Below are positions 22,234 to 36,119 of a DNA stretch of 64,000 bases, one piece after another; the first letter of the stretch is position 1; the number at the start of each line of letters is the position of its first letter. This DNA comes from Candidatus Krumholzibacteriia bacterium (GTDB lineage Bacteria > Krumholzibacteriota > Krumholzibacteriia > JAJRXK01). Both the position numbers and the translations under genes were made by a program. The notes beneath the pieces were generated by a model, which saw nothing but the letters and a program-made list of their open reading frames with translations, was not told where the DNA came from and did not search any database. The stretch spans positions 12,343-76,342 of the forward strand of contig JAOZPE010000008.1 of the NCBI GenBank assembly GCA_029932915.1, read 5' to 3'.

Positions 22234-23627
<1,394 letters not shown>

Positions 23628-23631
<4 letters not shown>

Positions 23632-25661
23632 GAACGACTCCCGATGAGCGCGGGGACCAGGGGAAGGGACATCCGGAAGACCGTGTGTCGACCGGGCTGG
23701 CTCTCCACCTGCAGGTTCCCGCCGTGGCGCTGAACGATATTGTGGGACACGAAGAGACCCAGGCCGGTGCCCTTGGCCTTCCGGGTGAAGAATGGCTCGA
23801 AGATCCGGCCGAGGTCGTCGGCCTCGATTCCCGCTCCGCGGTCGATGATCTCGAAGACCACCCGGTCGCCTTCCGCGGAATCCTCTTCCACATGGAGTTT
23901 GACGGTGACGGTCGCGCCCTCCCCACTGGCTTCGACCGCATTCTTGATGAGGTTCAACAGGACCTGATGGATCTGGTCACGATCGAGGTGGCATGCGGGA
24001 AGTTCCCCCTCCCCTTCCCGCTCGAGTTCGAGCCGGACGCCTCGCTGGCGGGCCCATTCCTCGAGCGCGCGCAGCGCCCGTCGGGCGGTCTGCACCGGAT
24101 CGCTCTCGATGGGCTCGAGCTTCACCGGACGGGTCACCTCGAAGAGACGACGGATGATGCCGTCCAGCCGGGCGATCTCCGAACGGATCATCGCGAGACT
24201 CTCGGCCTGATCGCCTTCGATGGACACGTGCCGCTGGAGGTAGTCCATGCCGGCGCTGATGCCCCCCAGCGGATTGCGGATCTCGTGGGCCATGCTGCTG
24301 GCGAAACGCCCGATGGCAGCGAGGGTGTCCAGGTGACGGATCTCCTCCTGCATGGCATGCACCGCCGAGAGGTCCTCGACCACGACGATCACCCCGCGTG
24401 CACCCCCGTCCTCGCGCTGGTAGGGCGCGGCGTTCACCAGGACCGGAATGGGACGATCCTCGGCGTCGCGCAGGATGCCCTCGTTGCGCAGCAGGGGCTG
24501 GCGGCGTTCCACCACCGAGGTGACCAGGGAGCGGACCCCGGTGACGCTCAGGTGCTTGTCCAGACGGCTCCCCACCAGTTCCTGCGCACTTCGGCCGAGC
24601 AGGTGCTGGGCGCGGCGGTTGGTGAAGATGATCCGGCCACGGTGGTCGGCGGTGAAGAGCCCATTGGTCATGCCGTCGAGGATCTGTTTGCGGAAGCGCT
24701 CCTCGCGTTGGACCTCCGTATACAGGCTGGCGTTCTGCAGGACCGCGCTCACCGCATAGCTCAACGATTCGAGGGTGAGTTGGTCGCCCTTGTGGATCCC
24801 TTCCGGTCGGCCCTCGTCGGTCACGATCATCAGACCGTAGAGCGGATAGTGGCGACAACACAGACAGGGTCCCAGGTCGAGTCCGCCCTCGGCCTGGGGA
24901 ATGCAGTTCTCCCGGCGATCCTCCGGGCGGGCCGGCTCGAAGGACGGGCAGTCGTCGTGGTACAGCCAGCCCTCCTGGATGCACTCGCGGCGGGGCAGCG
25001 GGGTCAACAGCGGCACGACCAGGTACGAGCGCGGGCGGGAGAAATTCGCGGGCGCCTCGCCGTTCACCTTCAAGAGCGGCTCGCTGGCGTCGCGTTCGGC
25101 CAGGATGCTGCGGGGCTGTCGCAGAGCCCGGGCCACCGCACCGGAGATACCTCCGATCGACCAGCGCACACTCTCCATGACCGGCCCTTCCCGTCCGGGG
25201 TGCAGCCAGCGTCCGATGAGTTCACGGCGAGGCGTCTCCAGGCGAAGGATCATGACCTCCTGGAAACCGCTGGCCCGGTGGCAGTAGCTCAGGGCCCGGT
25301 CGACGGTGTGTTCCAGGCGGCCCGGCTGGGCCAGGGCCTGCCACAACTCCCGGACGCTCAAAAGCTGGATGTTCGTGTGGACCAGACGCAGAACGGTCTC
25401 GTCGTGACGGCGTCGCAGACGCAGGGCCGCCCTCTCCAGGGGATCGTGCGGGTGGTCCGTGGCGAGCTGTTCGGGGTCGGGTTGGTCCCCGGCGTCGAGC
25501 AGGGCGATCACCGCCCGGCGCCGGCGCCGCTGCAGGACGAAGAGGAGCAGGACCGGGGGAAGGAGAACGAGCAGGACGACCCATCCGGGCAGCCGCGTGT
25601 GCAGCAGCAACGCCACGGGAGGCAGCAGGAAGTACGCGGCAGGTGCGAGCCGGTTCATCAT
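23628..25661 (-). CDS. Hybrid-sensing histidine kinase with GAF-like, PAS and HisKA domains
   Basis: 677 residues: two N-terminal TM helices (about 6-22 and 26-44) with a very short loop between, a coiled linker, a GAF-like domain (about 110-315), PAS (about 325-435), HisKA with H459 in SSMAHEIRNPLGG, and HATPase_c with N-box LIKNAVEA (571-578), DRGAGI and GTGLGLFVSHNIV. The GAF-like region carries six cysteines between 227 and 269, ending CLCC, which could bind a metal or Fe-S cluster. The kinase lies upstream of its regulator with a 4-base overlap. NtrB-like; some XrtA/PEP-CTERM loci use a kinase/sigma54 pair (PrsK/PrsR), but I cannot establish equivalence. Confidence 0.92.
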
Positions 25662-25856: not shown

Positions 25857-25879
25857 GAAAAGAGGCGCTCAGAGCGCTC
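25857..25879 (-). terminator. Likely terminator of the sugar transferase gene
   Basis: Minus-strand sequence GAGCGC-TCTGA-GCGCCTC forms a stem with one bulge, followed by TTTTCCC; it overlaps the stop codon. A second inverted repeat GCCGAAG/CTTCGGC lies at 25826-25847. Otherwise nothing is seen in the 200-base gap before the kinase gene. Confidence 0.45.
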
Positions 25880-26699
25880 CCCGGCCGGTGAACACCACTC
25901 CGATGGTGCGAAGCAGGATCTTCAGGTCGCGCAGCAGGCCGAAATGGGTGATGTACTCCAGATCGAGTTCGACCTTGCGATGGACTCCCTCGAGGCTCTC
26001 GTCGTAGCCGCTCTCGACCTGCGCCAGGCCGGTGATGCCCGGCTTGAAGCGAAGGCGCTCGAGGTAGCCCGGCACTTCCTCGCTCAACAGCGAGATGAAC
26101 GGAGGACGCTCCGGACGGGGTCCGACGACGCTCATCGAGCCCCTGAGGACGTTGTAGAACTGGGGGAACTCGTCCAGGCGGGTCTTGCGCAGGAAGCGTC
26201 CCACCCGGGTGATCCGTGGATCGTCCTTGCTGGCCCAGCGCACCCCTTCCGATTCGGAATGGATGTACATGGTCCTCAGCTTCCAGATCCTGAAGGGCTT
26301 GCCCTCGGCCACGAGCTTGCGCACGTCCTCCGAGCGGCCCTCTCCCCGCCTCCGCTCACCGATGTTCAGGGTGGTTTCCTTGCCCCGGCGGTCGCCCCGG
26401 CGGCGATTGATCCCCACCCGGGTCTGACCGTAGAACACCGGTCCCCGCGAATCGACTTTGATGGCCAGGGCGATCCACGGCAGCAGCAGGCCGAAGGCGA
26501 GCAGGGCGACGGTGGAGATGACGATGTCCATGCCCCGTTTGACCGTCCGCTTCCACTGCGGAACCTGGCCGTACAGAGGAATGGGCTTGCCCAGATACTT
26601 GAGCTGAGGCCGGTCGTAGGTCCGTGAGGAGCCCACGCGTTCCAACATGGAAGGGTCGAGCTGCATGGCTCCGCCTCTGGGCATCACGATTCCCGTCAC
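25869..26699 (-). CDS. Undecaprenyl-phosphate sugar phosphotransferase (initiating glycosyltransferase)
   Basis: 276 residues of the bacterial sugar transferase (WcaJ/WbaP C-terminal) family: one TM/reentrant helix at about 55-80 (RGMDIVISTVALLAFGLLLPWIALAIKVDSRGPVFYGQTRVG), then FRIWKLRTM, ITRVGRFLRKTRLDEFPQFYNVLRG and MSVVGPRPERP, the catalytic core. An unusual Arg/Glu-rich insert (GINRRRGDRRGKETT to GRSED, about residues 96-125) splits the usual sequence. It loads the first sugar-phosphate onto undecaprenyl phosphate and so starts the polysaccharide made by the locus upstream. Start could be GTG 26699 or ATG 26666. Confidence 0.93.
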   Translation of the reverse strand: MTGIVMPRGGAMQLDPSMLERVGSSRTYDRPQLKYLGKPIPLYGQVPQWKRTVKRGMDIVISTVALLAFGLLLPWIALAIKVDSRGPVFYGQTRVGINRRRGDRRGKETTLNIGERRRGEGRSEDVRKLVAEGKPFRIWKLRTMYIHSESEGVRWASKDDPRITRVGRFLRKTRLDEFPQFYNVLRGSMSVVGPRPERPPFISLLSEEVPGYLERLRFKPGITGLAQVESGYDESLEGVHRKVELDLEYITHFGLLRDLKILLRTIGVVFTGRGAL

Positions 26700-26915: not shown

Positions 26916-28025
26916 TCACCACTGACGGTGCAACACCACGCCCGGTCCGGCGCCCACCCAGGCGACGTCGACACCGACGCCGAGCAGACTGATCCGGCCG
27001 TTCTCCAGTTCCATCGGTTCGCGATTGGCCTTGAACATGGCATCGGCGACATTGAGCACCCAGAAGCCGGCCACGGCCAAGAGGACGCCGTTGCGCTGGG
27101 TGCGGGCGCTCTCCACATCTCCCTGGGCCGTGGCCCAGTTCGCCCGTGTCTGCGGAGAGGCGCCTCCCTGCGACTCCTCCAACTGGACACGACGTGCCCA
27201 GTCCTGCTCGGAAACCTTCCGTTGGTCGTAGAAGCGTTGGCTCTCCACCAGGGCCACGCCACCGATGAAGCCCAGCGTCGACCAGATCAGGCCCTGGGTC
27301 TCGTGGCCCAGGCGGGTCTGGCCCAGGCCCGGGTAGAGCAGCGAGAGCAGCCCCACATGCACCGCTCCCGGCGGGCGGTAGCGGGCGGCCACGCTCCGGG
27401 TTCCCGACAGTTCGAAACGATAGGGGCTGCGGCGCACGCCCGAGTGCAGGATGTTGCCGAAGTGGGCGTAGGCGGCCAGCCAGTAGTAGTGGTTCCGGGT
27501 CTGTTCCTCCAGCCAGATGTTGTCCTGCAGGTGGGTCTCCACCACATCGTATTCGACACTGCCCGGGGTGGCCTGCTCGTAGAAGGAGTCCAGGACCTGC
27601 CTCGCGTCGCGGACCTTGCTCTGGTAACGGATGCCCATCCCCACGGCCGTCCCCACCTGGGCCAACGGAATCAGTCCGGAGAAGGCGCCGATGTCGCGGA
27701 ACTGTCCCAGGCCGGGGAAGAAGAGGGACAAGAGGGCCCGGGTTCCCCGGCGGTCGGAGAGTTCCAGCCGCGTCCCCGCATCGACCTGGACGGCGTGCTG
27801 GTACACACCGTCCCGGTAGAAGAGCAGTTGGTAGCGGCCCGGGTCGAGGTGTTCGAGGGCCAGCGGTGCGGGCGAGGCGAGGTGGAGACTGCGTCCGTTG
27901 AGCACGAACTCGGCGTCGGTGATCTCCGAGGTGGCGCGGAACGACAGCGGATCGGCCGCCAGGGCCACATGGGCCACGAGCACCACGAAGGTGCCGACGA
28001 GCAGGATCACGGGAATTCGGCGCAT
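26916..28025 (-). CDS. PEGA-like / DUF5683-like envelope protein
   Basis: 369 residues with a signal peptide (MRRIPVILLVGTFVVLVAHVALA). Residues 30-85 look like a PEGA-type beta domain (FVLNGRSLHL, LEHLDPGRYQLLFYRDG). Two repeats of a short glycine motif, LFFPGLGQ near 103 and LLYPGLGQ near 240, mark DUF5683-type membrane units, each followed by hydrophobic helices. The gene follows the TPR lipoprotein of the exosortase run by about 60 bases. No function is known; it may act in polymer or protein secretion by association only. Confidence 0.72.
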   Translation of the reverse strand: MRRIPVILLVGTFVVLVAHVALAADPLSFRATSEITDAEFVLNGRSLHLASPAPLALEHLDPGRYQLLFYRDGVYQHAVQVDAGTRLELSDRRGTRALLSLFFPGLGQFRDIGAFSGLIPLAQVGTAVGMGIRYQSKVRDARQVLDSFYEQATPGSVEYDVVETHLQDNIWLEEQTRNHYYWLAAYAHFGNILHSGVRRSPYRFELSGTRSVAARYRPPGAVHVGLLSLLYPGLGQTRLGHETQGLIWSTLGFIGGVALVESQRFYDQRKVSEQDWARRVQLEESQGGASPQTRANWATAQGDVESARTQRNGVLLAVAGFWVLNVADAMFKANREPMELENGRISLLGVGVDVAWVGAGPGVVLHRQW

Positions 28026-28087: not shown

Positions 28088-29602
28088 TCAGGACCCCTTC
28101 CCCTTCGACGGCTCCAGTTCCCTCAGCATTTCCCGGGCCCGCTCCCCCACCCGGTTCGCCGGCATCTCCCGCTCCACCCAGACCAGATAGCGGCGCGCCA
28201 GGCGGGGATCGTGGAGACGCTCGTGGGCGATCCTCGCGGCCTCGAGCAGGGCCTCCCCACCCTCCAGACTGGATCCGAGAACGTGATACAGCTGTTCGAG
28301 TTCATAGAGGGCTTCCTGGATCTTGTCCTGCTGCAGGAAGCAGTCGATCAGGTTCTTGCGCGCCTGTACCGCCACCGGTGAATCGCTGGAGTGACCGGCC
28401 ACCAGACGTTGATACTGTTCCTCGGCCCGCACCAGGGCGCCGTGAACGGAGCGCTCATCCCCCCGGCGACGGTGCAGGGCGATCAAACGCAGGGGGGCCT
28501 CGATGCCCAGGGTGCTGTCGGGATAGCGCAGGACGACCCGGCGGTACAGCTTCTGGGCCTCGGCCCAGTCCCCCGCTTCCTCCTGCAGCTCGGCCCGCCG
28601 GAACAGAGCCGCTGCGACGATCTCGTCCTGATCGGCGAAGTCCTTCTGGACGGCCCGAAGGCCCGCCTCGGCGTCCTCGACCCGTCCTTCCAGGACCGCG
28701 ATCTCGCAGCGCCGGAGCGCGGCCAGGCCCTGGAGCGCGGGGTCGTCGGCCTGGCTCTGGACCCTGAGATAGAGCGAGTCGGCCTGGGCCAGACGTCCCA
28801 GTCCCTGGGAGAGGATCTCCGCGCGGTCGAAGTCTGCGTTGAGCCGGTCGCTCTCGCGGAGGTCGCGGCGCAGGTAGGCGTCGAGCGAACGCAGGGCGGC
28901 CTCCCAGTCGGCCGCGGCCAGATCGAGGCGGTGGTCGAGGAAGGCCGCCCGTTCGGCGCAGGCCTGCCCCTTCCAGTTCTCTTGCACCCAGTCGTAGAAG
29001 GCGTGTCCCTCGGTGCGTGCCTCTTCCACCAGCGAGTCCAGGCCAGCGGCGCGAAGATCGGTGACGAAGAGGATGGGTGTGTTCAACACTCCCTCGTCCA
29101 GTCCCCCCGCAGGAGGATCGGCCCTCAGGATGGCGTGGAATTCCCGGTAGCGTTGGAAGGCCTCGGGCCAGCGCTCCCGCGAACGCTCGGCCTCCGCCCG
29201 CAAGAGGGCGGCCTGCGCGCGCGTATGGGGGAAACCCTCTCTCTGTGCCAGGGCCAGCTCCTTGTCCGCCAGCTCGAAGTGGGCGGCCCGGAGGAAGGCG
29301 TCACCGGCCCGCACCAGACCCCATCCCCGCAGCTCGATCAGGTCGTGCCGCACCTGCGGATCGATGGATACCCCCAGGCCGGTCGTGTCCGCCCTGTCCG
29401 CCACTCTCAGATAGGACATCCCCGTACGGTAGTAGCGCAGTCGAACCCGCGGATCGGCCTCCAGCGAGTAACGCAGGGCCGAGCGCTCGGCCCAGTATCG
29501 AGCCTTCTCCGCCTGGAAGCGGCGGTCCAGTCCCTCGTGGGAACAGCCGGCGGCGAGCACGAGCACGAGCGGCAGCAGAAGGAGATCGACCCGGCGCATC
29601 AT
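28088..29602 (-). CDS. TPR-repeat lipoprotein in the exosortase locus
   Basis: 504 residues. Lipoprotein signal MMRRVDLLLLPLVLVLAAGC, with Cys20 as the lipidation site, then helical TPR-like repeats to the end (AHFELADKELALAQREG; DLAAADWEAALRSLDAYLRR; AGDWAEAQKLYRRVVLRYPDST; QQDKIQEALYELEQLY). The ATG overlaps the stop of the preceding TM gene (ATGA); a second ATG follows immediately. TPR proteins commonly accompany PEP-CTERM/exosortase EPS loci (PrsT-like), but this one is too divergent to name. Confidence 0.8.
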   Translation of the reverse strand: MMRRVDLLLLPLVLVLAAGCSHEGLDRRFQAEKARYWAERSALRYSLEADPRVRLRYYRTGMSYLRVADRADTTGLGVSIDPQVRHDLIELRGWGLVRAGDAFLRAAHFELADKELALAQREGFPHTRAQAALLRAEAERSRERWPEAFQRYREFHAILRADPPAGGLDEGVLNTPILFVTDLRAAGLDSLVEEARTEGHAFYDWVQENWKGQACAERAAFLDHRLDLAAADWEAALRSLDAYLRRDLRESDRLNADFDRAEILSQGLGRLAQADSLYLRVQSQADDPALQGLAALRRCEIAVLEGRVEDAEAGLRAVQKDFADQDEIVAAALFRRAELQEEAGDWAEAQKLYRRVVLRYPDSTLGIEAPLRLIALHRRRGDERSVHGALVRAEEQYQRLVAGHSSDSPVAVQARKNLIDCFLQQDKIQEALYELEQLYHVLGSSLEGGEALLEAARIAHERLHDPRLARRYLVWVEREMPANRVGERAREMLRELEPSKGKGS

Positions 29603-30441
29603 CCATCCCTCCCACCCTGCCGCAGGAACAGGCGCACCGAGGCGTCGATGGTGATGAACTCCACCATCAACGCGACCGCCGCCGCCGTGGCCATGATCAC
29701 CAGCACCACCTCCGGACGTAGACTCGCCGCCAGAAGGGCGGAACGCTGCAACAGGAACACGAAGGGCAAGGCGGTGGCCCACGGCAAGGTGCTCAACAGC
29801 AGAGGAAGCAGGGGATCGTCTCGGAAGATGCGCCAGCTGGCCCGGATGGCGGCCATCAGGCCTCGGCCCTCCCGCAGCAGATGGGGCAGGGCGAAGAACA
29901 GGGGGGCCATCACCACGACCGGGAGCAGGCTGGCCACGAGGCTGAAGACGACGTGGGGGCGATAGGACAGATGGAGACGGGGCAGGATGACGATCTGCGG
30001 GATCGCGTACAGCACGAACCAGCTCAGCGCCACGAGGACGGTCAGGGCCAGCACGCTCGGGTACGCCGAGCCGCTCGCCCGAGCCAGCGACTGCTCGTGG
30101 CGTCGACGCGTGTCTGCCAGGCGCAGGACCGCCCAACCCAACCAGGCGGCCACGAAGGGGCCGACGAACAGTTCGATCACCAGGCGAGCCGCTGACCCGG
30201 TACTGGGCAGACCGATGAACGACTGCGGATAGTGGAGATAGTAGTCGCCGAAGGCGGTACGCAGAACGGGAACCATCCAGCCCGACCAGAGAGGATGGGT
30301 GGGATGTGCACACATCCACATCACCAACACTTCCAGCAGGAGGATCGCAGCGAGCACCCGGCGCACGCCTGCCCTCTTGAGATCGAGGAGACCCAGGGCC
30401 ACCAGACGGATCGTCTGTTCGATGATCCTCAACAGGGTCAC
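29599..30441 (-). CDS. Multi-spanning membrane protein of unknown function in the exosortase run
   Basis: 280 residues with about six hydrophobic segments (VLAAILLLEVLVMWM; LVIELFVGPFVAAWLGWAVL; VLALTVLVALSWFVLYAIP; VVFSLVASLLPVVVMAPLFFALP; LLPLLLSTLPWATALPFVFLL; VVLVIMATAAAVALMVEFITI). No catalytic motif recognised. The start is GTG 30441, overlapping the EpsI stop (GTGA) with AGGAGGG about 8 bases upstream. Coupling on both sides implies a role tied to the exosortase module. Confidence 0.78.
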   Translation of the reverse strand: MTLLRIIEQTIRLVALGLLDLKRAGVRRVLAAILLLEVLVMWMCAHPTHPLWSGWMVPVLRTAFGDYYLHYPQSFIGLPSTGSAARLVIELFVGPFVAAWLGWAVLRLADTRRRHEQSLARASGSAYPSVLALTVLVALSWFVLYAIPQIVILPRLHLSYRPHVVFSLVASLLPVVVMAPLFFALPHLLREGRGLMAAIRASWRIFRDDPLLPLLLSTLPWATALPFVFLLQRSALLAASLRPEVVLVIMATAAAVALMVEFITIDASVRLFLRQGGRDG

Positions 30442-31073
30442 GACCCACCCTCCTGCTCGAACCAGTCGAGAACGGCCAGGGCGTGGCGTTCCCAGGTGCG
30501 TTGCAATCGGGCGCGCGCACCGTCCAGGCCATCGACCTCCAGGATGGGGGTGCTCATCCGCAGGAGAACCGCATCCCGCGGCCGGCCGGTCAGGACCGCC
30601 CGCATCTGATCGAGCTTCAGGCCGAAGGGCGTCAGACGGCGGCCCAGCCGCGTCTGATACGCATACCACACCAGGCGCCGTCGGCCGTTGTGCGCGATCG
30701 TCAGCTCCCTCAGCCGAGACGCGTGCAGGACACGGCTCTCACTGCGGACGATCTTCCAGCCCGATCCCGGATAGCAGTGTTCGGGGGGATGCACCTGCGC
30801 ATTGCTCCGTTGGCCGGCCCAGTAGCCTGCATAGATCCACACCGGTGCCCAGCCGTCTTCCCGCAACTCCACGAAACGGTAGCGGTCCATGCCGAGCATC
30901 GACATGGTCGCGTCGGAGATCTCCACGTCCCTGAAGCCATCCCCCTGCAGCACCGACTCCTCGAAGTCCTCGCTCCAGGAAGGCGCGACCACCGGCGAGC
31001 GTATGAACTGGGCGAGCGCCGCCAACACGACGAGGCCCGCCAGGACGAGCCACAGCCTCCCGGTGTCCTTCAC
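30438..31073 (-). CDS. EpsI family protein (DUF3485), exosortase-associated
   Basis: 211 residues: one N-terminal TM segment (LWLVLAGLVVLAALAQF), then the DUF3485 domain with YAGYWAGQRSNAQVHPPEHCYPGSGWKI; the PPEHCYPGSGW core is the family hallmark. EpsI proteins partner exosortases and are fused to them in some lineages. GTG start overlapping the exosortase stop (GTGA). Confidence 0.92.
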   Translation of the reverse strand: MKDTGRLWLVLAGLVVLAALAQFIRSPVVAPSWSEDFEESVLQGDGFRDVEISDATMSMLGMDRYRFVELREDGWAPVWIYAGYWAGQRSNAQVHPPEHCYPGSGWKIVRSESRVLHASRLRELTIAHNGRRRLVWYAYQTRLGRRLTPFGLKLDQMRAVLTGRPRDAVLLRMSTPILEVDGLDGARARLQRTWERHALAVLDWFEQEGGS

Positions 31074-31903
31074 GAGAGCTCTCCCTTCGAACGGCCGCTG
31101 AAGGCGACCCAGCCCAGCACGATCGCACCGAGACCGAAGGTGAAGAGACCCTCGGCCATGTGGAAGACGCCCTCGGCCTGGGCCGGTCCTCCCAACTGCG
31201 CGGCATAGCCGGTGACCACCAGCCGGAGGAGGTTCGCCACCAGGGCCAGGGGAACGGCCAGCAACAGCAACAGGAGGGTCCGTCGCGCAGAGACCCGTGC
31301 GAGCACGGCCACCAGGGCGGCCAGGGCAGTCATGGCCAGGAGACTGCGGAGCCCACTGCACGCCTCCACCACCTCCAGCCGATACCCCGGGAAGGTCAGG
31401 AGGTTCCCACTGCGCACCAGGGGAACGCCGCTGAGTTGGAGGACCGCGGCCGCAGCCCACGAGGAGAAGCTCTGCAGACGCGCCGTCACCGCGTAGTAGA
31501 CCACGTACGGCCAGGGGACCAGGGTCACCAGGGCCAGGAGCGGACCACGCCACGCCGAGCGGATCGGCGCAGTGGCCTGAAGTTCCAGCAACAGGAGCGC
31601 GATCGCCACCGCTCCCCAGCGCTGGAGGCTGTCGTTGGACGACAGCAGACCGGCTGCGCTGAGAACGAAGGCGATGGCTCCCCACCCCCACCATGGAAGC
31701 AGGTATCGTTCGTCCACCTGCGAGGGACGCCGCCAGCTCCTCCACAGGCCCACGGCCAGCAGCAGACCGGCCATCGCCAGACCGTGGCTGTAGTTCGGAT
31801 CGTGCGTGAGGTCGACGAACCAACCCGCCAGCACGGGCCCTTCGAGCCACAGGGCGACGGCCACCGCCAGGAGGCCCGGCAAGCACTTTCCAGGATACCT
31901 CAC
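31070..31903 (-). CDS. Exosortase (EpsH/XrtA-type membrane transpeptidase)
   Basis: 277 residues, about eight TM helices. Catalytic residues: Cys182 in VVEACSGLRSLLAM, Arg227 in ANLLRLVVTGY, and His248 in FHMAEGLFTF. Exosortases cleave PEP-CTERM signals in the inner membrane; one such substrate is encoded at 38983-39564. I chose GTG 31903 because GGAGGAGGG lies just upstream and it overlaps the flippase stop (GTGA); an upstream GTG at 31918 is less well placed. The subtype cannot be set without alignment. Confidence 0.95.
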   Translation of the reverse strand: MRYPGKCLPGLLAVAVALWLEGPVLAGWFVDLTHDPNYSHGLAMAGLLLAVGLWRSWRRPSQVDERYLLPWWGWGAIAFVLSAAGLLSSNDSLQRWGAVAIALLLLELQATAPIRSAWRGPLLALVTLVPWPYVVYYAVTARLQSFSSWAAAAVLQLSGVPLVRSGNLLTFPGYRLEVVEACSGLRSLLAMTALAALVAVLARVSARRTLLLLLLAVPLALVANLLRLVVTGYAAQLGGPAQAEGVFHMAEGLFTFGLGAIVLGWVAFSGRSKGELS

Positions 31904-33372
31904 TGCGCCCTCCTCCACCGCCAGGGAAGCAACCAGCGCAGTTCGTCGGGCTGCAGGGCCCGGCTCATCAACAACGCCGACAACACGACGGCCATGTACA
32001 CCACACCACCGCCGACGAGAGCCCGCAACGGCAGCTCGATGGTGCAGGATACACCCCAGGCCACGAGGCCGCCCACCGCTGATGCGCCCCCGAAGCGCAG
32101 GAGGTCACCGAGGCGGTAGAAAGCCCTTCTCCGCACGCCGGTACGGCGCCCGATCTGCCAGATGTAGAAGCCCACCACCATCAGGCCCGCCAACTCGGTC
32201 GCGATCGCCGGGCCGAGGAATCCGATCCATCGCAGCAGCAGCCAGTTGCCGATGATGTTGGCCACCATGAATCCGAGCTCGCCCAGCAGCATCATCCTCG
32301 TCAGACCGAGCGCCTGCAGCAGGATGCCGAAGAAGAAGAGACGGTTGAGCTGGATGAGTCCGTAGATGCGGAAGACGTTCGCACTGGCGGCGAAGGAATC
32401 GCCATAGAGGAAGACCAGGAAGGGTTTGGCCAGTGCGATGAAGGCCACGGTGATCGGGATGCACAGGAGGCTGACCTTGCGCTGGGTGGCCGAGAACAGC
32501 GAGGTGAACGCCTCGTCGTCGTGACGGCCCCAACTGGCCGACAATTGCGGCAGGACGACGCTTCCCGCGCTCCGCACCAGCAGCATCACGATGGGGATCT
32601 CCGTGGCACCGATGCTGTACAGGGCGAAGCGCTGGGGATCCATGTACATGGAGATCATGATCTGGTCGACCTGACGGCTCAACAGACCCACCATGCCCGA
32701 CACCGCCAGGGGCAGCGCATAGGCCATCTGCGCCTTCAGGAGGCCGCGCTGCAGGTGCAGCCGGAGGGGAAGGATACGGTGCTGAAGGAAGAGGGCCACC
32801 GCGATGCTCGCGCCCTCGGCGATGGCCATCCCCAGCAACGCGAGGTGAAGGGGTTGACCCATCCACACGAGGACGACCAGCACGAGACCCACGCCGAAGG
32901 CCTGGGCGATGCGAAACAGGCCGGCCAGGCGCGCCCGGTCGAGGGAGAGGAAGAGGGGCGCGATGTAACGGATCAACAGCCCGGTCAGGAAGAGCGGCGA
33001 GGCCACCGGCAGGAGGGGACCGAGGGTCTCGTTGTGGAAGCGCAGGGCGATCACACCGCTGAAGAGGGTCGCCCCCAACGAGGCGACGGCACCCATGATG
33101 GTCAATCCCAAGAGGGTCTGGCCCGCGAAGCGCGCCTTCTCGGTGTCGTCCTCCATGCGGGGCAGGAAGTAGAGCAGGGACAGGGGCAAGCCCAGCGAGA
33201 AGATCCCCGACACCATGTTCACCAGGAGGATGACCTGCCGGTAGGTTCCCAGGTCCTCCAGGGAAAGCGTGCGCGCCAGGAAGATGCCGACCAGGGTCGT
33301 GGCGACCTGGGCGGAGATGTTCGCCGCGGTGAAGGAGAGGACCTTGTTGGCCAGATCGCTGCGGGCCATCAC
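31900..33372 (-). CDS. Polysaccharide flippase, Wzx/MOP superfamily
   Basis: 490 residues with about 12-14 TM segments. Opening LANKVLSFTAANISAQVATTLVGIFLARTLSLEDLGTYRQ is typical of polysaccharide_synt/Wzx proteins, as is LLSRQVDQIMISMYMDPQRFALYSIGA near 235. It probably moves undecaprenyl-linked repeat units across the inner membrane. It heads the run flippase-exosortase-EpsI-multiTM-TPR, in which each stop overlaps the next start by 4 bases. Start MM at 33372/33369. Confidence 0.92.
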   Translation of the reverse strand: MMARSDLANKVLSFTAANISAQVATTLVGIFLARTLSLEDLGTYRQVILLVNMVSGIFSLGLPLSLLYFLPRMEDDTEKARFAGQTLLGLTIMGAVASLGATLFSGVIALRFHNETLGPLLPVASPLFLTGLLIRYIAPLFLSLDRARLAGLFRIAQAFGVGLVLVVLVWMGQPLHLALLGMAIAEGASIAVALFLQHRILPLRLHLQRGLLKAQMAYALPLAVSGMVGLLSRQVDQIMISMYMDPQRFALYSIGATEIPIVMLLVRSAGSVVLPQLSASWGRHDDEAFTSLFSATQRKVSLLCIPITVAFIALAKPFLVFLYGDSFAASANVFRIYGLIQLNRLFFFGILLQALGLTRMMLLGELGFMVANIIGNWLLLRWIGFLGPAIATELAGLMVVGFYIWQIGRRTGVRRRAFYRLGDLLRFGGASAVGGLVAWGVSCTIELPLRALVGGGVVYMAVVLSALLMSRALQPDELRWLLPWRWRRAQ

Positions 33373-33435: not shown

Positions 33436-34365
33436 TCAGCGGCCCGTCCAGCGCAGGGCGAAGAAGTGCATCTGGCCCAGTTGCTCGTGCGGGATGTAGG
33501 CGTAGTCCAGGGCGATGCCGGAATGGCCAACGCTGAAACCGAAACGGTAGGGCGAGAATGCAGCGTCCGTGGAGGAGTCGAGCGTGGAGACATATCCACC
33601 CCGAAGGGTGAGGATCTCCTGGAAGAGCGACCACTGGAGACCGAATGCCAACTCTTCACTGTCCTCACGCCGATCGTTGTAGGCCACCGCAAGTTCCAGA
33701 TGCGCCGGCCGAATGGTCCAGGCGCCACCCGCGGAGAACTTCTCGGGAAGGTCGAAGCGCTCCCCGTCGTAGTCCAGCGAACCGAAGAGATTCGTCCCGG
33801 CCGCGCCCAGGCGCACCGGGCCCAATTGCAGCACGCCCCCGAGATCGTAGGCGAAGCCGCTTCCCTTGGCGACGTCAAGATTCTCCTGGATGTAATGGAC
33901 GCCTCCTCCCAGGGATAGCCCGCCGATCCGGTAGCCTCCGGCCATCCCCAGACTCATGTCCTGGGGCTCGAGCGAGCTCAGGCGCTCTCCGCCGACGTCG
34001 AAGCGCGGGACGCTGGCATGGTTGACCAGACGGCCCATCAGCGCCAGACCACCACGTCCCCCACCGAGGGGGAATTGGAGGGACAGGGCACTGAGGTTCT
34101 GGTCGGCGAGCAAGAGCCCGTGGGTCAGGGACACCGAAGCGCGCCGCACCACCGAACCGGCCGGGTTGGCGAATGGCGAGATATCCTCTCCCCACCGTGC
34201 AACATCGATACCCCCCATTCCCTCGCCGACCACATCGACCGGCACAGCAAGGAAAGTACCGACCTCTTCCCGCGCCCATGATGCGGTAAGGGGAAGAACG
34301 AGCAACAGGAGGGCTGTACCAAGCCCAGCAAGGAAGGACGGGACTCGTCGGGATTGACGCTTCAT
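33436..34365 (-). CDS. PorV/PorQ family outer-membrane barrel protein
   Basis: 309 residues: signal peptide (LAGLGTALLLLVLPLTASWA), then the PorV/PorQ pattern GTFLAVPVDVVGEGMGGIDVARWGEDISPFANPAGSV, close to the FadL-like family signature (...ALGGAY.A...D..A...NPAGL). Repeated strands follow, ending HFFALRWTGR. PorV proteins accompany type 9 secretion in Bacteroidetes, but similar proteins occur in many FCB lineages without T9SS; no T9SS gene is visible here. The start ATG 34365 begins the signal peptide. Divergent from the COG0392 gene. Confidence 0.85.
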   Translation of the reverse strand: MKRQSRRVPSFLAGLGTALLLLVLPLTASWAREEVGTFLAVPVDVVGEGMGGIDVARWGEDISPFANPAGSVVRRASVSLTHGLLLADQNLSALSLQFPLGGGRGGLALMGRLVNHASVPRFDVGGERLSSLEPQDMSLGMAGGYRIGGLSLGGGVHYIQENLDVAKGSGFAYDLGGVLQLGPVRLGAAGTNLFGSLDYDGERFDLPEKFSAGGAWTIRPAHLELAVAYNDRREDSEELAFGLQWSLFQEILTLRGGYVSTLDSSTDAAFSPYRFGFSVGHSGIALDYAYIPHEQLGQMHFFALRWTGR

Positions 34366-34437: not shown

Positions 34438-35430
34438 ATGCTTGACGCCTCTTCGCGCACCCGACGCTTCCTCGGCCGGCACCTCTTCGCCTATCTGGCG
34501 GCACTGGCGGTGGTGGTCATCGCGTTGGCGATCCTCCTGGCCCGGCAGCCCCTGGCCGAAGCGTGGAGGGACTTCGATCGCCGTCTCGTCCTTCCCGTTC
34601 TCCTGCTCAGTCTCAGCAACTACCTGCTCCGATTCGGCAAGTGGGACTACATGCTCCGCGCCCTCGGAGAGCGCGTTCCCCTCGGTCTGAATCTGCGGGT
34701 GTACTTCTCCTGCCTGACCATGGTCGTGACCCCCTTCCGTCTGGGCGAACTCTACAAACTGGTCTTCTTGAAGCGCCTTCATGCCGTCCCTCTCCAGCGC
34801 TCCGGTGCCGTGCTCCTCGCCGATCGCTTGACCGACACCATCGCCATCCTCGCTCTGGCGAGTCTGGGAGTGGGTTCCACGGGCGGGGCATTCGTGACCA
34901 AGCTCGTCGTTCTCCTTCTTCTCACCCTGGCCGGCGGCGTTCTCCTGAGCCGGCCGATGGTCCAGGACTTCCTTCTACGGGGGCTCGAACGGATACCTCT
35001 GACGCGCTCCCGGGCCGAGGCATGGGCCGAAGCCTTCTCGGGCGGGGCACGCCTTTTCTCGCTTCGCATCCTCCTGCCGACCCTCGCCGTGAGCGTGGCG
35101 GCATGGTTCGCCGAATGCGTGGGGCTCTATCTGATTCTCGTGGGGCTGGGAACGTCGATCAGTCTTCAACAAGCAAGCGGGATCTACGCTGCTGCCACTC
35201 TTGCCGGGAACCTGACCTTCCTTCCCGGCGGCCTCATTGGAACCGAAGCCGTTCTGTTGGGAATGCTCCGGCAGGCCAGCGTCGCAGCAGGGCCGGCGGC
35301 CGCCGCGACCCTCCTCATCCGGGGCGCCACGCTCTGGTTCGCCGTGAGCCTGGGACTCGTGGTCAGTCTGGGCTCACGCAAAGCGCTGCGCTGGAATGAG
35401 GTGTCGCGGGAAGCAGCCGACTACTCGTAG
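34438..35430 (+). CDS. Lysylphosphatidylglycerol-synthase TM-region / COG0392 (AglD-like) membrane protein
   Basis: 330 residues with about eight TM helices. Family segments: SNYLLRFGKWDYMLRALG, TPFRLGELYKLVFLKR, LLADRLTDTIAILALA and NLTFLPGGLIGTEAVLLGMLRQ. Members are thought to flip or modify lipid-linked glycans. The only forward gene within the EPS locus. Its last ten bases overlap the 3' end of the converging BY-kinase gene. I chose ATG 34438; the open frame above it runs into the opposite promoter region. Confidence 0.87.
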   Translation: MLDASSRTRRFLGRHLFAYLAALAVVVIALAILLARQPLAEAWRDFDRRLVLPVLLLSLSNYLLRFGKWDYMLRALGERVPLGLNLRVYFSCLTMVVTPFRLGELYKLVFLKRLHAVPLQRSGAVLLADRLTDTIAILALASLGVGSTGGAFVTKLVVLLLLTLAGGVLLSRPMVQDFLLRGLERIPLTRSRAEAWAEAFSGGARLFSLRILLPTLAVSVAAWFAECVGLYLILVGLGTSISLQQASGIYAAATLAGNLTFLPGGLIGTEAVLLGMLRQASVAAGPAAAATLLIRGATLWFAVSLGLVVSLGSRKALRWNEVSREAADYS

Positions 35431-36119
35431 CCGTAATAACTGTATTCGTAGTAGTAGGGCAAGACCTCCGTCGCATTGTTCAGAACCACTCCCAGCAGGT
35501 TCGCATTGGAATCGAGCAGGACCTGCTTGGCTCGCTGGGCCACCTCCCGGGGAGTCAGCCCCCCCAGGATGACCATGAGGACGCCGTCCATCTCTCCGGC
35601 CAGCAGCGTGGTATCCGCCACCGGAAGGACGGGAGGCGCGTCGAAGATCAGGATTTCGAAGCGCTGACGCAAGAGGGCGATGGTATCGCTGAGGAGCCGG
35701 GTCTCGAAGAGCGCGCCCGGGTGCTCGACCATGGTACCGCTGGGGATCACCTGAAGGTGCGAATGCGGGGTGGGCCGAAGGGCCTGCTCCAGCGAACAAT
35801 GGCCCCTCAACAGGTCACTCAGCCCCGGTTCACGCGGCATCTGGAAGAGACGATGGATGCTGGGCCGCCTCAGGTCGGCGTCCACCAGGACGGTGCGCGT
35901 GCGCTTGTGGTGGGCGATGGTCACCGCCAGATTCGAGGAGGTGGTGCTCTTGCCCTCACCCCGCTCGGCCGAAGTCACCATGAGGACTTTGTAGCCGTTG
36001 TCGTGAAGGACCGGCCGGAGCTTCGTGTACAGACGGCGCATCTCGATGGCCAGAGGCGTCTCGAAGTCCTCGGCCTTGGTCGACAGCAGAGGCGACCGGG
36101 GAAGGGTCTTCTCGCTCAT
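35421..36119 (-). CDS. CpsD/CapB-family tyrosine autokinase (BY-kinase cytoplasmic part)
   Basis: 232 residues with Walker A SAERGEGKSTTSSN, Walker A' VLVDADLRRP and Walker B ILIFDAPP, the three-motif set of bacterial tyrosine kinases. The C-terminal tail holds seven Tyr residues (YYYEYSYYGYE), the autophosphorylation cluster. It overlaps the chain-length gene by 4 bases, so this is a split Wzc: transmembrane and kinase parts are separate. Phosphorylation cycling usually controls polymer length. Confidence 0.93.
   Translation of the reverse strand: MSEKTLPRSPLLSTKAEDFETPLAIEMRRLYTKLRPVLHDNGYKVLMVTSAERGEGKSTTSSNLAVTIAHHKRTRTVLVDADLRRPSIHRLFQMPREPGLSDLLRGHCSLEQALRPTPHSHLQVIPSGTMVEHPGALFETRLLSDTIALLRQRFEILIFDAPPVLPVADTTLLAGEMDGVLMVILGGLTPREVAQRAKQVLLDSNANLLGVVLNNATEVLPYYYEYSYYGYE

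Follow-up and report, generated by a model that had tools for sequence, protein, structure and literature searches.

Among environmental bacteria, exosortases and PEP-CTERM proteins are widespread. In the 64,000-nucleotide stretch of Krumholzibacteriia DNA analysed here (the window), five minus-strand genes read from the sequence run from 33372 to 28088, with a flippase first and a TPR lipoprotein last. The locus raises the question of whether an exosortase and its immediate neighbours constitute an undescribed system, as the initial annotation had proposed. The genes are as follows:

31900..33372, minus strand: MOP-type, Wzx-like flippase (490 aa; Polysacc_synt_3, 78 bits)
31070..31903, minus strand: exosortase (277 aa; Exosortase_EpsH, PF09721, 160 bits)
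30438..31073, minus strand: EpsI/DUF3485 (211 aa; PF11984, 96 bits)
29599..30441, minus strand: unnamed multi-TM membrane protein, here called TM280 (280 aa; conserved HYP motif)
28088..29602, minus strand: TPR lipoprotein (504 aa; TPR_6)

Coordinates, junctions and family matches all agreed that these are five genes with overlapping ends, each of the four junctions sharing four bases (GTGA, GTGA, GTGA and ATGA in gene order). Because such overlaps are common elsewhere in the window (11470/11473, 13124/13127, 18006/18009, 23628/23631, 36116/36119, 50855/50858 and 63404/63407), those of the run represent ordinary operon packing. Among relatives, a start was available at exactly −4 in 9/25 exosortase/EpsI, 6/24 EpsI/TM280 and 8/24 TM280/TPR junctions, and within −20 to +40 bp in 24/25, 21/24 and 21/24, respectively; the conserved feature of these junctions is adjacency, and the exact overlap is not conserved. 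Neighbourhood comparison across Krumholzibacteriota delineated a conserved block of exosortase-EpsI-TM280-TPR-PrsK-PrsR. The suggestion that the genes form an operon was supported, and the order exosortase-EpsI-TM280-TPR is kept across the phylum; conservation of order did not extend to the flippase. No flippase homologue was present in the corresponding loci of Krumholzibacteriota relatives, and two glycosyltransferases occupy its place in the sister genus. On these grounds the flippase was rejected as a member of the conserved module; it is a local member of the run.

The exosortase exceeded the TIGR02602 cut-off (115.9 bits against 105.6), and its Cys182, Arg227 and His248 fall in invariant columns of the exosortase alignment, as in EpsH-type enzymes. 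It is the sole PF09721 match in its genome, and its score for XrtA (TIGR03109), 123.1 bits, fell under the curated cut-off of 208. The adjacent EpsI passed TIGR02914 (81.8 bits; cut-off 42.8), and alignment revealed an N-terminal membrane anchor and a globular domain bearing an invariant Q-x-H-x-P-x-x-CYPG-x-G motif. Its predicted model (pLDDT 84) was weakly similar to the PsbP/DcrB/EagT6 fold (prob up to 0.99, TM 0.3-0.46), a likeness kept as a lead only.

Beyond the run, the following features of the window bear on its interpretation:

38983..39564, minus strand: candidate PEP-CTERM substrate (193 aa; signal peptide, C-terminus ...APEPAGVILLAMGLGVVGAMRLLRARFVRVSI)
37868..38839, minus strand: Wza-type polysaccharide export protein (Poly_export, 72.9 bits)
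36116..37843, minus strand: Wzz-type chain length determinant (top NCBIfam model XrtA-type TIGR03007, 149.9 bits, under cut-off)
35421..36119, minus strand: BY-kinase, partner of Wzz (TIGR01007, 141 bits, over cut-off)
33436..34227, minus strand: PorV/PorQ-like outer-membrane protein (NF033709, 73.6 bits, under cut-off 90)
26916..28025, minus strand: DUF5683 protein (369 aa; PF18935, 38.9 bits)
25869..26699, minus strand: initiating sugar-phosphate transferase of the exopolysaccharide (EPS), EpsB_2-like (PF02397, 205 bits)
23628..25661, minus strand: histidine kinase (PAS, HisKA) in the PrsK position (TIGR02916, 85.5 bits, kinase domain only)
22234..23631, minus strand: NtrC-like response regulator in the PrsR position (TIGR02915, 402.8 bits, cut-off 502.6)

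The product of 38983..39564, which ends ...APEPAGVILLAMGLGVVGAMRLLRAR, is the likely substrate and had been overlooked in the initial annotation. Its scores for PF07589 (16.0 bits; cut-off 20.7) and TIGR02595 (15.0 bits; cut-off 16) both lie below threshold. The PEP-CTERM gene at the equivalent position in the sister genus passes PF07589 with 23.4 bits, and the C-termini of the two proteins align. A PF07589 scan of the whole window genome yielded nothing above cut-off, and the candidate was not among its results. The empty scan had suggested an orphan exosortase without a substrate, a reading set aside once gene calling within the window brought up this protein, the one PEP-CTERM candidate found for the system. 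Most other Krumholzibacteriota carry one to three PEP-CTERM genes immediately upstream of the exosortase, and PEP-CTERM proteins with a signal peptide were found among them.

The sugar transferase, Wza, Wzz and BY-kinase link EPS genes to the exosortase. The transferase scored 214.8 bits for TIGR03013, under the cut-off of 393; the top NCBIfam model for the Wza-type protein was the XrtA-type TIGR03027, under cut-off, and the BY-kinase reached 132.6 bits for the XrtA-associated TIGR03018, also under cut-off. The PorV/PorQ-like protein recurs in the cluster and is present in Zixibacteria clusters too, and the DUF5683 protein is a conserved TM280 neighbour across phyla, found near TM280 again in KSB1/Zixibacteria.

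In the conserved blocks of relatives, PrsR scored above cut-off (561-582 bits for TIGR02915) and PrsK at or near cut-off, with TIGR02916 matches above it in genomes G005, G012 and G026; G085 and G105 also have matches above it. In the window genome no protein passed TIGR02916, the highest score being about 109 bits and confined to the kinase domain, and the kinase in the PrsK position was rejected as PrsK by its score. The regulator was likewise rejected as PrsR, being under the TIGR02915 cut-off and scoring higher with the NtrC model; its sigma-54 loop reads GAFTDA, whereas that of relatives reads G[AS]FTGA. In 477 kb, each of the 29 TGGCAYN5TTGC sites was positioned at the start of PEP, exosortase or sugar-transferase genes, and in other Krumholzibacteriota sigma-54 sites mostly precede both the PEP-CTERM gene and the exosortase. 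Near the PEP-CTERM/exosortase genes of the window, no TGGCAC-N5-TTGC site with at most one mismatch was found. The window lineage is derived, with a GAFTDA regulator and without PrsK or sigma-54 sites.

Profile searches with the TM280 of the window returned no Pfam or NCBIfam match. Three of the 24 members in the family alignment weakly matched GPDPase_memb (PF10110; best E 0.004); however, the window protein was unmatched, and TM280 is without a phosphodiesterase domain. A Wzy polymerase was disfavoured by the small size and the absence of a Wzy_C match. Because Foldseek comparison of the AF2 model (pLDDT 88) with the PDB gave no significant match (best leads CTL1, prob 0.96, TMq 0.45, and CysZ, prob 0.77), we made no functional call by fold. 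TM280 was present in 34/80 Krumholzibacteriota genomes and in 96/133 genomes of a Zixibacteria-centred phylum. It does co-occur with the exosortase: in Krumholzibacteriota it was found in 27/27 genomes with a full-length exosortase versus 7/53 without (Fisher p 3e-15), and in the Zixibacteria-centred phylum in 83/90 versus 13/43 (Fisher p 3e-13), tests that overstate independence because the genomes counted are kin. In sampled genomes of Zixibacteria, KSB1 and Calditrichota, TM280 is surrounded by EPS genes and the exosortase is usually elsewhere. Moreover, TM280 was missing from 26/26 exosortase genomes of Acidobacteriota, Desulfobacterota and others. Genomes G015 (a single contig, 91% completeness) and G003 keep TM280-TPR beside EPS genes with no exosortase detected; G003 is a draft, so its exosortase could be lost in an assembly gap.

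The TPR lipoprotein carries an LAAGC lipobox with Ser at +2, is predicted to reside in the outer membrane, and has an invariant Cys20 in 18 members. Its gene occupies the genomic slot of PrsT, an identity ruled out by the lack of a TIGR02917 match over cut-off; PrsT passed that cut-off in 0/10 genomes. In 17/19 loci, the TPR and kinase genes are connected by a −4 start.

The locus is not an undescribed system, because a PEP-CTERM substrate, exosortase, EpsI, PrsK, PrsR, a TPR lipoprotein and EPS export genes already make up the PEP-CTERM/exosortase (EpsH) system described in 2006 (Haft et al. 2006, PMC1569441). The window shares with it the exosortase, EpsI, EPS cluster and TPR lipoprotein, together with a candidate PEP-CTERM protein, and the window's relatives share PrsK, PrsR and sigma-54 sites upstream of the PEP gene. 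Unlike that system, the present one includes TM280 as an additional conserved membrane protein and a TPR lipoprotein that is not PrsT; the PEP gene and exosortase module of Krumholzibacteriota each have their own sigma-54 site, and the window lineage has neither PrsK nor such sites. The run is the exosortase end of an EPS cluster and represents the PEP-CTERM/exosortase system in diverged form. Portions of an account of Aquincola report pepA-prsT and epsB2-prsK-prsR loci needed for floc formation, with a PEP-CTERM gene under RpoN control close to the gene of a TPR lipoprotein, and a sugar transferase adjoining a two-component system; however, Aquincola belongs to another phylum, its TPR protein to another family, and TM280 goes unmentioned in those portions (PMC9850573). 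No literature treating exosortase and Krumholzibacteri together was found.

Collectively, our findings make it probable that the run constitutes the sorting end of an EPS cluster of Wza/Wzz type and represents the PEP-CTERM/exosortase system as found in Krumholzibacteriota, with TM280-TPR as parts of the EPS/PrsK-PrsR apparatus. The Sec-exported 38983..39564 protein, which bears a C-terminal PEP, helix and Arg tag, would be retained in the inner membrane; the exosortase, through Cys/Arg/His, would cut at the tag and hand the protein on with the assistance of EpsI, and sorting would proceed in step with polymer export through Wzz, BY-kinase and Wza. Within the EPS/PrsK-PrsR apparatus, TM280 in the inner membrane would pair with the TPR lipoprotein, whose predicted place is the outer membrane; most likely the two span the envelope, or stage it, so that polymer can be assembled or exported. 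The analysis established gene identities, catalytic residues, conserved neighbourhoods, co-occurrence and the sigma-54 sites of relatives; we infer cleavage and transfer from the literature, and the putative TM280-TPR role from the present analysis. The window has neither PrsK nor sigma-54 sites, and its regulator is no bona fide PrsR, so parts of this explanation are carried over from relatives.

TM280 and TPR would best be read as EPS/PrsK-PrsR components rather than dedicated sorting factors, because in Zixibacteria, KSB1 and Calditrichota TM280 lies amid EPS genes, usually away from the exosortase, and some genomes keep TM280-TPR with EPS genes but without a detected exosortase. That they serve the exosortase itself, by delivering its substrate or transferring the protein once cleaved, would agree with the tight exosortase-EpsI-TM280-TPR order within the phylum and the strong genome-level co-occurrence; we nevertheless consider it unlikely, given G015 and G003, the separate exosortases of most sampled sister-phylum genomes, where TM280 stays among EPS genes, and the 26 exosortase genomes without TM280. 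The persistence of the pair where no exosortase was detected points to a primary tie to EPS genes. It is similarly doubtful that TM280 and the TPR lipoprotein act as a sensory arm of PrsK-PrsR, relaying the state of the envelope or of the EPS to the sigma-54 control that governs exosortase and substrate: the −4 coupling of TPR and kinase genes and the sharing of one module with PrsK, PrsR and sigma-54 sites favour such an arm, but the window lineage retains TM280-TPR despite the loss of PrsK and sigma-54 sites, and G015 retains the pair without PrsK.

The initial annotation had also envisaged that flippase and exosortase are functionally coupled, the flipped glycan supplying sorted proteins with polymer or a lipid anchor. 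The two genes overlap in the window genome, and Haft et al. likewise speculated that an EPS-linked nucleophile might be the recipient in the transfer (PMC1569441); with glycosyltransferases in the sister genus and no flippase in relatives' loci, the flippase lies outside the conserved unit, and the argument for coupling therefore falls, leaving it very unlikely. A more speculative proposal, which we regard as distinctly unlikely in its entirety, holds that in FCB-group bacteria TM280-TPR makes up a trans-envelope unit, so far undescribed, through which EPS export is coupled with the PrsK-PrsR/sigma-54 control exerted on the exosortase and its dedicated PEP-CTERM substrate, and that EpsI, with its weak predicted likeness in fold to PsbP, DcrB and the transmembrane-helix-cradling Eag chaperones, presents the sorting helix to the exosortase.

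The machinery is of a known bacterial kind that produces a slimy surface polymer and, alongside, processes surface proteins bearing a tag; TM280 and the TPR lipoprotein emerge as conserved parts of it in several little-studied bacterial phyla. As a compact module in which one to three PEP-CTERM genes stand directly upstream of the exosortase, sigma-54 sites come in pairs and TM280 is conserved, the system offers a small, testable set of parts. What is new here is TM280, a conserved component so far unnamed, whose family merits a name.

The five genes and four 4-base overlaps described in the initial annotation were matched exactly on reading the window sequence, and the five-gene run is a real operon. 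At least seven further junctions within the window also overlap by four bases, and the same junctions in relatives are closely spaced, at exactly -4 in a minority; the 4-base overlap is thus nothing unusual. We assigned families to the five products using Pfam and NCBIfam, which identified a MOP flippase, an exosortase (TIGR02602 above cut-off, with no specific Xrt subfamily over cut-off in NCBIfam) and EpsI (TIGR02914 above cut-off). TPR repeats were the sole family match of the 504-aa TPR lipoprotein, and the 280-aa multi-TM protein, TM280, matched no family. The exosortase is the genome's sole PF09721 match; it retains the Cys, Arg and His residues invariant across relatives and shares a long branch in the tree with the exosortase of the closest named relative, Candidatus Krumholzibacteriota OFTM315 (L106, contig JAJDAC010000014.1). 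The EpsI model (pLDDT 84) combines a helix at the N-terminus with a globular domain that weakly resembles PsbP, DcrB and Eag chaperones, with low TM-scores; its invariant Q-x-H-x-P-x-x-CYPG-x-G loop is a candidate functional site, offered as a lead only.

The proposal that TM280 co-occurs with exosortases was borne out. Within Krumholzibacteriota, TM280 was found in 27/27 genomes with a full-length exosortase versus 7/53 without (Fisher p = 3e-15), two of the seven (G019 and G023) being contig-edge cases in which EpsI is still present. In the Zixibacteria-centred phylum, where an exosortase match below E 1e-30 was taken as full-length, the counts were 83/90 versus 13/43 (p = 3e-13); both p values ignore kinship. 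Short exosortase-family matches (~150 residues) confined to the C-terminal half of PF09721 were also seen (G218, G219, G220 and others), frequently as the genome's sole match, and several TM280 hits in this phylum carry at least one in-frame stop (G185, G116, G084, G207 and others), which may reflect pseudogenes, sequencing errors or recoding. Among 44 genomes, picked for having an exosortase, TM280 occurred in all 18 from Zixibacteria, KSB1, Calditrichota and one FCB-group bacterium, and in 0/26 from Acidobacteriota, Desulfobacterota and others.

HMM mapping of relatives showed that most loci of the phylum follow the order exosortase-EpsI-TM280-TPR-kinase-regulator; in one family (G006, G010, G017), TM280 is not adjacent to the exosortase. 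The kinases of G005, G012 and G026 exceed the PrsK cut-off and that of G009 falls slightly short of it; the regulator of L056 scores above the PrsR cut-off. The flippase, which the initial annotation had coupled to the exosortase, does not belong to the conserved unit: no homologue was found in the relatives' loci, and two glycosyltransferases occupy its position in the sister genus.

In sister phyla, TM280 is accompanied by a sugar transferase and usually also DUF5683, the KSB1 order being TM280-TPR-kinase-regulator-Wza-Wzz, and the exosortase is not close to TM280 in most of 18 regions; PrsK and PrsR, both over cut-off, adjoin TM280 in L202 and L206. Moreover, G015 (a single contig) and G003 retain TM280-TPR amid exopolysaccharide (EPS) genes, with no exosortase detected. 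This sister-phylum context and these two genomes suggest that the TM280-TPR pair belongs primarily to the EPS apparatus. The lipobox Cys of the TPR lipoprotein is invariant and followed by Ser at +2, for which the E. coli +2 rule predicts the outer membrane. TM280 yields a confident helical model lacking a significant structural match, and 3/24 members weakly match GPDPase_memb. In the KSB1 and Zixibacteria clusters, an Fn3-rich lipoprotein encoded between DUF5683 and TM280 (L206:6869-10000; L202:8478-10016, +) is a further unnamed cluster member.

Two further genes were noted in the window's EPS cluster:
38983-39564, - strand, candidate PEP-CTERM substrate carrying a signal peptide and a C-terminal tail, APEPAGVILLAMGLGVVGAMRLLRARFVRVSI, found by gene calling
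41966-43066, - strand, GAF-GGDEF diguanylate cyclase at the cluster edge, occurring in the sister genus as well

The candidate substrate, overlooked by the initial annotation and by a genome-wide PF07589 scan, is slightly sub-threshold (PF07589, 16.0 bits, cut-off 20.7; TIGR02595, 15.0, cut-off 16). In the sister genus, the same position, flanked by the epimerase and Wza, is occupied by a gene exceeding the PF07589 cut-off (23.4 bits), whose C-terminus aligns with that of the candidate. Most other Krumholzibacteriota loci carry one to three PEP-CTERM genes immediately upstream of the exosortase; those of the scanned representatives pass PF07589. The sugar transferase, Wza, Wzz and BY-kinase gave top or near-top scores with XrtA/PEP-CTERM-type models, all under equivalog cut-offs.

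The sigma-54 motif TGGCAY-N5-TTGC occurs 29 times in 477 kb of sequence from relatives, versus ~1.8 expected under even base composition. Fifteen sites lie 36-93 bp upstream of a PEP gene and two fall within the opening codons of PEP ORFs for which the start was probably called too early. By the coordinates of mapped loci, 11 lie immediately upstream of the exosortase or at the start of its ORF, and one lies 101 bp upstream of the G015 sugar transferase. Near-perfect sites upstream of both the PEP-CTERM gene and the exosortase were noted in Krumholzibacteriota loci L048, L053, L054, L059, L062, L063, L067, L069, L070 and others. The relatives' regulators contain G[AS]FTGA, except that of L046, which yielded no such motif; the window's NtrC-like regulator (22234-23631, -) reads GAFTDA at this position. 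No sigma-54 site of this kind was found near these window genes, although the window's genome encodes RpoN, and PrsK is absent. The window's lineage carries a derived form of the module.

A literature search for exosortase together with Krumholzibacteri matched none of the papers searched. EpsH, EpsI, PEP-CTERM, PrsK, PrsR, the TPR lipoprotein PrsT and sigma-54 sites were described by Haft et al. 2006 (PMC1569441), and a study on Aquincola floc formation (PMC9850573) indicates that PrsT and an RpoN-dependent PEP-CTERM gene matter there. Rather than the undescribed system initially proposed, the present module is of the same kind as that of Haft et al.; new relative to it are the conservation of TM280 as a component in FCB-group phyla, a TPR lipoprotein other than PrsT filling the PrsT slot, the pairing of sigma-54 sites and a derived lineage that lacks PrsK. 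The module is ordinary in kind, with one conserved component that has no name.
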